A stretch of 40,932 nucleotides of DNA from an uncultured Solobacterium sp. GTDB lineage: Bacteria; Bacillota_I; Bacilli_A; Erysipelotrichales; Erysipelotrichaceae. Both the position numbers and the translations under genes were made by a program. The notes beneath the pieces are model-generated. The model was not told the DNA's origin, did not search any database, and was given only the letters and a program-made list of their open reading frames with translations. Positions 28,673 through 30,421 of this stretch are shown here, one piece after another. Numbering within the stretch: position 1 is the first letter of the stretch; every line of letters starts with the position of its first letter. The stretch is from the NCBI GenBank assembly GCA_900552125.1, contig URYK01000023.1, forward strand, positions 1-40,932. The letters run 5' to 3'.

Positions 28673-29617
28673 TTAGTGAAACATATCTTTCTTTTTAAAA
28701 ATCCATATGGCAATTAGACAAGCAACCACAGAGATGAAAGTTGGGAACCACCAATGAGTGTTTCCAAAACCAGTTACGTTCATACCATAAAATGCAAAGA
28801 CTAATGCAGGAATCTGAACAACAAGTGTGATAACTGTTAATACTTTCATAACGATGTTTAGATTATTGGAAATAACAGAGGCAAAGGCATCCATTGTACC
28901 TGATAGGATATTGGAATAGATGTTACACATTTCAATTGCCTGGTGAACTTCAATCAATACATCTTCTAATAAGTCCTGATCTTCTTCATATAGCTTAATT
29001 AATCTTCCACGCATGATTTTGTTTAAAGTTACTTCATCGGTTTTTAATGATGTACTAAAGTATACTAGTGATTTTTCTAAACCAAGCATTTGAATTAATT
29101 CCTGATTTCTCATAGATTGGTGTAATTTTTGTTCTGTACGAGAAGAAATACGATCAATCTGACGTAGATAGATAAGGAAACGTTGTGAAATACGAAGCAG
29201 AAGCAATAATAAGAAACGTGTTTTCATATCCGTATTTATACCTTTGATTCTACCATTAGCCATATCTTCGATGCTTAGGTTTTCATATAAACAGATTGTG
29301 ATGACATAACCTTTCATGATTACGACGCCTAAAGGTAAGGTCGTATAAAGTAATGTGTTTTCATCAAAATTATCATCTTCTTCAGCACTAGGATAATCAA
29401 TGATAACTAGTGTCTGATTTACATCATCGTCATAGTCGATATGTGAGCTTTCTTCTTCATCTAGAGAAGATTTAATGAATTCAGGAAGGACTCCGATATG
29501 ATCAATTAAATAATCCACTTCTTCCGGTGTTGGTGCTACAGCGTTGATCCAGCATCCTGGTTCTGGCTGTTCAATGCGTTTTGTGACATTATCAAAAGTT
29601 TTGTAAAATTCCAACAT
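28673..29617 (-). CDS. corA: CorA family divalent metal ion transporter
   Basis: A 314-residue CorA-type channel protein, expected to take up Mg2+ (Co2+ or Ni2+ also possible). It has a large soluble N-terminal domain, a long helix rich in LEDVLIEVHQAIEM, then two C-terminal membrane helices with the selectivity motif YGMN at 277-280. The extracellular loop after GMN is VTGFGNTHWW, and the C terminus is basic (KKKDMFH). The ribosome site GGAGG (minus strand, 29629-29625) is inside a terminator-like hairpin. The upstream leader carries a proline/acidic peptide ORF, so expression probably responds to translation of that leader. Confidence 0.9.
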   Translation of the reverse strand: MLEFYKTFDNVTKRIEQPEPGCWINAVAPTPEEVDYLIDHIGVLPEFIKSSLDEEESSHIDYDDDVNQTLVIIDYPSAEEDDNFDENTLLYTTLPLGVVIMKGYVITICLYENLSIEDMANGRIKGINTDMKTRFLLLLLLRISQRFLIYLRQIDRISSRTEQKLHQSMRNQELIQMLGLEKSLVYFSTSLKTDEVTLNKIMRGRLIKLYEEDQDLLEDVLIEVHQAIEMCNIYSNILSGTMDAFASVISNNLNIVMKVLTVITLVVQIPALVFAFYGMNVTGFGNTHWWFPTFISVVACLIAIWIFKKKDMFH

Positions 29618-29663
29618 AAAAAAACCTCCTTTTTACAGGAGGAAAAGTAATATGCCTCCTGTA
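29618..29663 (-). promoter_or_regulatory. corA attenuator: antiterminator and terminator/SD-hiding hairpins
   Basis: On the minus strand the 9-bp hairpin TACAGGAGG / CCTCCTGTA (29663-29655 with 29642-29634) shares its right arm with a second hairpin, CCTCCT-GTAAAA-AGGAGG, followed by T7 (29642-29618). The two cannot form together. The second is an intrinsic terminator whose 3' arm is the corA ribosome site. A third segment CTCCTG (29706-29701) could pair with CAGGAG of the first arm. Confidence 0.75.
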
Positions 29664-29710
29664 TTATATTTTACATTTTTTTGACATGGACTCTCGGGCT
29701 CAGGAGACAT
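29633..29710 (-). CDS. corA leader peptide, proline/acidic (MgtL-like)
   Basis: A 25-codon ORF begins MSPEPESP and ends GGILLFLL, with AAGGTG 6 bases before its ATG. Its stop TAA lies in the shared arm of the attenuator, so a ribosome finishing the ORF would cover the antiterminator. Alternating Pro and Glu near the N terminus resembles enteric MgtL (which begins MEPDPTP or MDPEPTP). Such stretches destabilise translating ribosomes at low Mg2+. The ORF lies directly upstream of a CorA transporter. Translation and mechanism are inferred. Confidence 0.65.
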   Translation of the reverse strand: MSPEPESPCQKNVKYNTGGILLFLL

Positions 29711-29736
29711 ATAAACACCTTCTTTCTGACTGTGCT

Positions 29737-29745
29737 ATTATACCA
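29737..29745 (-). promoter_or_regulatory. Extended -10 promoter of the corA leader
   Basis: On the minus strand TGGTATAAT predicts a start near 29730 and a leader of about 113 bases. The rest of the gap, 29746-29850, is AT-rich with nothing recognised. Confidence 0.6.
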
Positions 29746-29850: not shown

Positions 29851-29880
29851 AAAACAGGCAACAAAAGTTACCTGTTTTTA
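29851..29880 (-). terminator. Terminator of the DJ-1 family gene
   Basis: A 12-bp stem with one mismatch (29851-29862 with 29867-29878) gives a U tract on the minus strand. Confidence 0.7.
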
Positions 29881-29887
29881 GATGTAT

Positions 29888-30421
29888 TTAATAGTAAATT
29901 GACGCTTTTACTTCATCTGCTTTTTCTTTTCCTTCCAGTTTTTCGATGATTGCGAAAGCAAAGTCAATTACTGCAGCAGCACTTCTTCCAGTGATGATAT
30001 TTCCATCAGTTACTGTATACTGATCAATATAAGTACCACCAAAATCTTCGTTCATACTAGTGAAGCAGGTATATTTTTTATTTTTTAGATAACCTTGTTT
30101 TCCTAAAATAGTAGGAGCCGCACAGATTGCGCTGACTAGTTTATTATTCTCAATGAAATGTTTTAATATTGATAATACACGTTCATCCTTTTCTAGTTTT
30201 TGATAATGAGGTCCTCCAGGTAAGAAAAGCATATCATAAGCGTTGATATCCGCATCCTTTAAGTCTTTTAGGTTAGCACATGTGATATCAAAACGTCCAG
30301 TTGCGTTGGTATTATCAATGGCATATACATCAATAGTAATTCCAGTTCTTCTTAATAGGGCGATTGTGCCGATAGCTTCTAATTCTTCAAATCCATCTGT
30401 TAAAATACACATTACTTTCAT
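29888..30421 (-). CDS. DJ-1/PfpI family protein
   Basis: A 177-residue cytoplasmic protein of the DJ-1/PfpI superfamily. The likely catalytic Cys100 is in the nucleophile elbow SAICAAP, and Glu15 in GFEELEA corresponds to the conserved acidic residue beside that cysteine. FLPGG is also present. Relatives act as glyoxalases, deglycases, chaperones or stress proteins; the length and EELEA pattern are closest to the DJ-1/ThiJ group. It is monocistronic, with TGGTATAAT upstream and AAAAGGAGG before the ATG. Confidence 0.85.
   Translation of the reverse strand: MKVMCILTDGFEELEAIGTIALLRRTGITIDVYAIDNTNATGRFDITCANLKDLKDADINAYDMLFLPGGPHYQKLEKDERVLSILKHFIENNKLVSAICAAPTILGKQGYLKNKKYTCFTSMNEDFGGTYIDQYTVTDGNIITGRSAAAVIDFAFAIIEKLEGKEKADEVKASIYY

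Follow-up and report, generated by a model that had tools for sequence, protein, structure and literature searches.

The locus raises the question of whether a short open reading frame that begins MSPEPESP, lying directly upstream of a gene for a CorA-like Mg2+ transporter, controls the synthesis of that transporter, and if so through which RNA structures and in response to which signal. We approached it by comparing the locus with the corA upstream regions of related genomes.

Layout of the corA locus

In the window (the whole stretch of DNA analysed, 40,932 nucleotides from an uncultured Solobacterium sp.), the minus strand carries corA, the leader ORF, the ribosome sites, the −10 element and the hairpins. 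The extended −10, leader ribosome site, 25-codon ORF and hairpins reported in a preliminary description of this DNA are all present; that description did not name the strand. The features, including the segments denoted A to D, are as follows.

29888-30421, minus strand: DJ-1 family gene, the next same-strand gene upstream of corA
29851-29878, minus strand: terminator-like hairpin that follows the DJ-1 family gene, upstream of the corA leader (terminator scan)
29737..29745, minus strand: extended −10 promoter element TGGTATAAT
29716..29726, minus strand: leader ribosome site GAAAGAAGGTG, with columns mostly invariant or nearly invariant in 40 sequences
29633..29710, minus strand: leader ORF of 25 codons, MSPEPESPCQKNVKYNTGGILLFLL followed by a stop, beginning MSPEPESP; residues 3-6 (PEPE) are the proposed sensor
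29701..29712, minus strand: segment A (ATATGTCTCCTG), leader start codon and codons 2-4; predicted partner B
29650..29661, minus strand: segment B (CAGGAGGCATAT); predicted partner A (OFF) or C (ON)
29634..29642, minus strand: segment C (CCTCCTGTA), anti-Shine-Dalgarno arm overlapping the leader stop codon; predicted partner B (ON) or D (OFF)
29625..29630, minus strand: segment D (AGGAGG), the corA Shine-Dalgarno, predicted to be sequestered by C
29618..29624, minus strand: T7, between the corA Shine-Dalgarno and ATG; C:D with T7 makes an intrinsic-terminator-like site
28673..29617, minus strand: corA, 314 aa, CorA-like Mg2+ transporter (PF01544, 149.8 bits; YGMNV in the sequence)

The PDB relatives of the window CorA by sequence are solved CorA Mg2+ transporters (best E 5.3e-20); against the NCBIfam corA equivalog it scores 91.2, under the cut-off of 200.75. 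The gene begins 15 nt after the end of the leader ORF and is likely transcribed on its own, because the terminator-like hairpin at 29851-29878 separates it from the DJ-1 family gene. Among the 43 leaders searched, the promoter element TGNTANNAT was not found in L007 and L094; in the other 41 the leader ATG follows its end by 23-31 nt, a distance too short to offer an aptamer much space. As a single sequence, the window leader folds moderately better than chance (z −2.30; 6/200 shuffles as good); the decisive evidence is comparative.

Two hairpins had been described here earlier, and both were confirmed: the TACAGGAGG/CCTCCTGTA hairpin is the 5′ arm (B) with C, and the CCTCCT/AGGAGG hairpin overlaps the corA ribosome site. 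That set lacked one element: the ORF's own start (A), the fourth segment, which pairs with the hairpin 5′ arm (B).

The leader accompanies corA in the Erysipelotrichales

A scan of genome contigs with the window CorA yielded 39 corA loci, of which 24 carry the leader. Most of these bear genus names such as Amedibacillus, Longicatena, Thomasclavelia, Traorella, Faecalicoccus and Holdemanella, with other labels at L007 (Clostridiales bacterium) and at L009 and L016 (uncultured Firmicutes). The leader is absent at 15 of the 39 loci (L022-L033, L036, L038, L039), which are labelled Acholeplasmatales, Anaeroplasmataceae, Enorma/Collinsella/Limicola, Eubacteriales, Lactobacillales or uncultured bacterium.

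The order sampled was that of G001 (Amedibacillus dolichus, Erysipelotrichales), the same NCBI order as Thomasclavelia, and 71 of its 294 sampled genomes encode a CorA at E up to 1e-40. For 41 of those 71 the identity is at least 68%, and every one of these 41 has the leader (one CorA is split across two contigs). At 50-59% identity, judged by eye, the leader was found in two of 10 genomes (L094, MKEDPYSH...; L096, MFPDPEYR...) and not in the other eight, ORFs having been listed for three of the 10; L094 and L096, at 58-59% CorA identity, have very different letters (almost wholly different in L094) and, again by eye, the same segment layout. In none of the 20 genomes with CorA identity below 50% was a leader of the PEPE type seen, and in four of them another type of short ORF precedes corA.

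This second type (L116, L117, L118 and L120; CorA identity 39-41%, same order) encodes the peptides MDAGPYHDQYDTNET, MDAGPYHDLLTYNLN, MDAGPDIKRRN and MDSGPYHSSLKEHN, each up to its stop codon. After each of them comes a stretch that could, as seen by eye, hide the corA ribosome site, and to judge from Asp2 and Pro5 the sensor may be similar. A search for this type (MDAGPY..) with the pattern MD[x]GPYH, which would miss the MDAGPD.. of L118, found it in one of 392 genomes of the phylum, the one already known. At L031 (Acholeplasmatales), a possible TTG-started short ORF (MDTYICNKNN...) and partly complementary stretches were noted by eye upstream of corA.

We built a covariance model, R1, from 40 leaders and ran it with stricter filters and 9-12 candidates scored per genome, settings with which weak relatives may be missed. 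Over 288 genomes of the order it gave 43 matches, 41 adjoining corA in the same 41 genomes as the set of at least 68% CorA identity, and two by chance; most are expected by construction because R1 was trained on the 40 leaders, while the matches in G098 and G168 lie outside the training set. Under the same settings, nine of 395 genomes of the class had matches, seven of them leader-bearing members of the order and two by chance. The downstream gene is corA in all 41 real matches. Weak matches in G071 (its second), G253, G627 and G417 were rejected: they proved to be either chance hairpins or an ATG preceded by a ribosome site, upstream of unrelated genes.

The working set comprises 43 distinct leaders: that of the window, those of 40 of the 41 genomes (without G098), L094 and L096. 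The 42 further distinct sequences of the order share with the window, upstream of corA, the start of the ORF, its ribosome site and the segments. An alignment of relatives' corA upstream regions, suggested earlier as a check, shows the short ORF, its Pro/acidic codons and the hairpins to be conserved. Three repeats (L080, L088 and L092, of L011, L014 and L034) were not counted, and outside the set stand L095, where the leader was not seen, and the G098 leader, found by R1.

Selection on the first residues of the leader peptide

Residues were counted in 42 of the 43 leaders, L093 being left out for its two-codon insertion (MSASPDPH). Position 3 is Pro in 37 of these, position 4 is acidic in 39, position 5 is Pro in 40 and position 6 is acidic in only 28, and from codon 7 onward residues are free to vary. 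The pN/pS ratio, from plain pairwise counts in 41 leaders (without L093 and L094) uncorrected for relatedness and repeated hits, is 0.17 at codon 3, 0.47 at codon 4, 0.08 at codon 5 and 0.63 at codon 6, and reaches 1.03 both at codon 7 and at codons 8-14 (codon 14 of L013 falls beyond its stop). The Pro/acidic ORF proposed from the window alone is borne out before corA as an ORF whose first residues are selected as peptide.

An acid beside Pro (41) or an acid-x-acid (2) is found within residues 2-8 of all 43 leaders and within residues 9-16 of one of 42. Residues 2-6 are 32% D/E and 36% P, as compared with 6% and 0.7% for residues 9-18. Leaders lacking both prolines carry acids instead (MSLDADG, MSLDSDG), and a non-acidic residue 4 is accompanied by an acidic residue 6 (MSPVPER, twice; MSPLPED). 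PP does not occur within the first 8 residues of any of the 43.

Pro5 is written CCC in 19 leaders, CCG in 16, CCA in 3 and CCT in 2; it looks selected as an amino acid, because it lies outside the counted A:B, B:C and C:D pairs and uses four CCN codons. For Ser2-Pro3, pairing may be part of the reason, since a match to B requires A to read CTCC. Peptide-level selection looks confined to the first six residues. Over the set the leader ORF is 12-31 codons long, and its remainder appears from the comparison to be free in sequence, yet it extends to or through B.

Four segments with alternative pairings

The comparison gives good support to a four-segment switch, in which A:B with C:D and, on the other side, B:C would be mutually exclusive. 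We aligned 40 of the 43 leaders (without L093, L094 and L096) with MAFFT; in this alignment, A1, some rows are off by one or two bases at C. A:B and C:D together are paired in 83.4% of cells (A:B 89.3%, C:D 73.1%), with 45 double changes vs 20.4 in shuffles (0/500 as high) and a covariation of 0.266 vs 0.181 (0/500). The number of pairs with a double change (9 vs 8.9 shuffled, 298/500) and the pair types (159/500) show no excess for these helices; two of the five covariation measures fail against the shuffles, which test both helices jointly. B:C is paired in 83.3% of cells, with 44 double changes vs 21.2 shuffled (0/500), and is weakly above shuffles in pairs with a double change (7; 13/500 as high) and in pair types (51/500). 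Shifting the partners by 1-3 columns leaves pairing at 44-55% for both helix sets. When partners were swapped between species (40 of the 43 leaders, with segment anchors set per sequence and fitted to pairing), own partners beat all 1000 swaps for each helix (0.806 vs a maximum of 0.772; 0.756 vs 0.694; 0.755 vs 0.741). Computed energies for the window helices are −19.0 (A:B), −15.5 (B:C) and −10.0 (C:D) kcal/mol.

The position of the ORF relative to the segments was counted in 40 leaders, L093, L094 and L096 being kept apart. In 38 of them the leader stop falls 10-35 nt downstream of where B begins and between −10 and +13 relative to where C begins; in the other two (L013, L064) it comes 4-7 nt upstream of B. 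With a ribosome footprint of about 15 nt to either side, ribosomes that reach the stop would lie over B or C in all 40 leaders, and a ribosome at codons 3-5 would cover A alone. The reading frame in which B falls is 0 in 23 leaders, 1 in 7 and 2 in 10, and this use of all three frames indicates that B is kept as RNA. From the stop to the corA ATG the distance is 10-29 nt in 38 leaders and 43 and 46 nt in the other two. Mutually exclusive hairpins, laid out so that ribosome position could be read out, had been put forward in the preliminary description, and both parts of that idea are supported here.

Output at the corA ribosome site

GGAGG precedes corA in all 43 leaders. Within the 15 bases upstream of corA the window has a run of 7 T; the longest T-run there is 4 in L096 and 3 in L076, and none of the other 40 leaders exceeds 2. 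A search for closer relatives in the nearest genus (that of G115) gave two genomes, L058 and L065, which were in the set already and lack the T7. Because T7 is found in 1/43 leaders while GGAGG is found in 43/43, the conserved output looks translational, not a terminator, and a conserved U-run after the 3:4 hairpin, a feature of trp-type attenuators, is lacking (1/43). In the window, the terminator scan finds C:D with 6 pairs followed by T7, and in the window's organism the OFF state may, through T7, include termination of transcription as well. The earlier proposal of competing hairpins that act through a T7 terminator therefore divides: the competition stands on the covariation of B:C and of C:D/A:B, and control by an intrinsic terminator is not supported, as it is the corA GGAGG that is kept.

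With a ribosome placed at codon 3, the mean computed exposure of the corA site rises from 0.073 to 0.445 in the leaders, compared with 0.385 to 0.424 in 430 shuffles. The increase exceeds 0.3 in 27/43 leaders vs 42/430 shuffles, and exposure exceeds 0.5 in 19/43 leaders. At equilibrium the computed release is close to nil in some leaders (for example L003, L018, L020, L064 and L065), where co-transcriptional folding or repeated rounds would have to play a part.

Known RNA classes and literature

An Rfam search of the leader returned no family at gathering score, neither the M-box (RF00380) nor another class, in agreement with the earlier statement that the M-box consensus is not recognisable; matches to STnc280, RAGATH-25 and ncr952 lie far under their cut-offs and were set aside as chance. 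Of the 41 leader-bearing genomes, 37 were searched for an M-box: four have one elsewhere, in no case at corA, and the other 33 gave no match. The gene that follows it, as named from translations, is a P-type ATPase in L161 and mgtE-like in L163 and L164, and for the fourth no long ORF was found in the stretch scanned.

In open-licence literature, searched by titles and abstract openings, no leader peptide before corA in Firmicutes is among the matches listed, and the earlier remark that no Firmicute corA precedent was known holds to that extent; the listed matches show no precedent and do not by themselves prove that there is none. By term search, the main text of PMC8040213 contains corA solely inside a person's name, and that of PMC11109978 does not mention it.

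A proposed attenuator and its alternatives

We consider it probable, on the comparative evidence, that the leader is a translational attenuator in which CorA synthesis would be set by the progress of ribosomes through the short leader ORF. With ample Mg2+, ribosomes would get past PEPE, traverse B and finish at or near C; B:C would be melted, A:B would re-form behind the ribosome with the leader start codon hidden, and C would close onto D, so that no CorA is made. At low Mg2+, the Pro/acidic codons would make ribosomes pause or drop off; with A occupied and B left free, B:C would form, and D would be freed for translation of CorA.

These steps differ in their footing. Comparison across the leaders speaks directly for the exclusive helices, for selection on the start of the peptide and for corA after every real R1 match. 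We infer the pause or drop-off at PEPE, its dependence on Mg2+ and the direction in which early failure would turn corA on, the last because mgtQ behaves in this way. Mg2+ is a plausible signal in view of the downstream gene and the likeness to MgtL and MgtQ.

The same four-segment switch might instead serve a signal other than Mg2+, with corA turned on by any slow or aborted early elongation, as from a shortage of proline or charged tRNA-Pro, a shortage of EF-P or ABC-F, or a ribosome-targeting drug. We hold this to be unlikely. The layout would report ribosome position irrespective of cause, the sensor holds two Pro codons in most leaders, and Salmonella MgtP is described, in a passage of PMC8092293, as responsive to charged tRNA-Pro; however, L009 and L076 have no Pro in residues 1-8 and retain D-x-D, so proline cannot be the general signal, and the lack of PP at the peptide start and the constancy of corA after the leader (41/41 real R1 matches) also weigh against it. 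A transcription attenuator, with C:D and T7 as intrinsic terminator and B:C as antiterminator, would account for the 6 pairs and T7 of the scan and for the supported B:C competition, but we judge it very improbable because the run of 7 T is found in one leader of 43 and is missing from L058 and L065, and a GGAGG is found in all.

At least as improbable is plain translational coupling without sensing, in which a leader ending near corA would let ribosomes re-initiate: the usual 10-29 nt between stop and corA ATG would suit it, but 43 and 46 nt in two of the 40 leaders and the lack of a fixed overlap would not, and it leaves the selection on the first residues and the covarying A:B and B:C helices unexplained. 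It is extremely improbable that the leader is a metal riboswitch, with an aptamer, whose ORF is incidental. A structured leader before a metal transporter gene would suit such a device, but Rfam gave chance-level matches alone, all below gathering score, the 23-31 nt between −10 and leader ATG are followed by mostly coding sequence, and the start of the peptide is under codon-level selection.

Retaining the translational attenuator, we lean on balance towards a broader reading. A Mg2+ sensor made of nascent peptide and ribosome would have arisen independently in the Gram-positive Erysipelotrichales, where it would control CorA translation; its RNA would be a D-C-B-A chain of complementarity that tends to force Ser-Pro codons, with acid4-Pro5-acid6 added as the sensor, and it would replace the M-box in most of these genomes. 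If true, this would suggest that bacterial ribosomes are generally open to use in Mg2+ sensing and that such use has evolved more than once: a distant phylum and a different transporter would share the same Pro/acid register in a conserved, codon-selected leader. It would also give common gut bacteria, most of them seemingly without an M-box, a likely Mg2+ control circuit, and the 43 natural variants are available for asking which residues matter.

Comparison with known systems

Translational attenuators of the erm type also switch between 1:2 with 3:4 and 2:3, and free a ribosome site when a ribosome stalls early. Those respond to drug-induced arrest and control resistance genes, whereas here an acid/Pro start precedes a metal transporter.

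In enteric bacteria, passages of PMC11552253 describe corL-corA, which like the present locus has a uORF before corA and two exclusive RNA structures, with a response to Mg2+ reported in E. coli; unlike the present leader, corL is Rho-dependent and has fewer Pro/acidic residues. The gamma-proteobacterial corA motif, marked by a three-way junction and the corL ORF, is reported, in the portion of PMC6429828 drawn on here, in gamma-proteobacteria only. With this motif and E. coli corL, a leader ORF before corA is already known in another phylum (PMC6429828, PMC11552253).

The mgtL leader of mgtA (E. coli, Salmonella) had been cited as a precedent from the outset, and its Pro/acid register is indeed shared: EPDP puts Pro at 3 and 5, as does M-x-P-[DE]-P here, with a Mg2+ importer downstream in both (PMC11282234, PMC11552253). 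As passages of PMC11282234 describe it, EPDP (Glu2, Asp4) makes ribosomes drop off when Mg2+ is low, mutation of Glu2 and Asp4 leaves an mgtA reporter without detectable expression, and with EttA present a toeprint places Pro3 in the P-site. The present leaders have the corresponding Pro/acidic motif in their first residues, kept as peptide. They differ in output, since mgtL controls transcription (Rho-dependent in Salmonella; PMC11282234, PMC11552253), and sequestration of a ribosome site is the likely output here.

Missed in the preliminary description was a closer precedent, mgtQ-mgtB of Salmonella, for which we draw on passages of PMC8092293. There, too, a short ORF has early acidic residues, segments pair as 1:2 and 3:4 vs 2:3, and the gene for a Mg2+ transporter has its ribosome site hidden in 3:4, giving a translational output; the four exclusive segments, a 3:4 helix with the corA ribosome site and the early acidic residues are all found in the present leaders. 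The mgtQ layout is supported by mutants: translation of mgtB falls when the start codon is lost or Asp/Glu are changed to Ala, and rises when 1:2 is disrupted (PMC8092293). The stability order is also the same, −16.4 vs −12.26 for mgtQ (PMC8092293) and B:C (−15.5) stronger than C:D (−10.0) in the window. The protein bL31 is reported to counteract the effect (PMC8092293); it is encoded in all 12 leader-bearing genomes searched (12 of the 41), which is weak evidence because it is expected of most bacteria. The two differ in peptide and in locus. MgtQ has 8 residues with Asp2 and Glu5, and its single Pro matters via pairing alone, whereas the ORFs here have 12-31 codons and mostly P3-acid4-P5; mgtQ lies inside an operon between mgtC and mgtB (PMC8092293), whereas here a 5′ leader with a promoter-like element precedes a stand-alone corA in the Erysipelotrichales. 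The present leader would thus work like mgtQ-mgtB at a different locus and, if our reading is right, would sense like mgtL.
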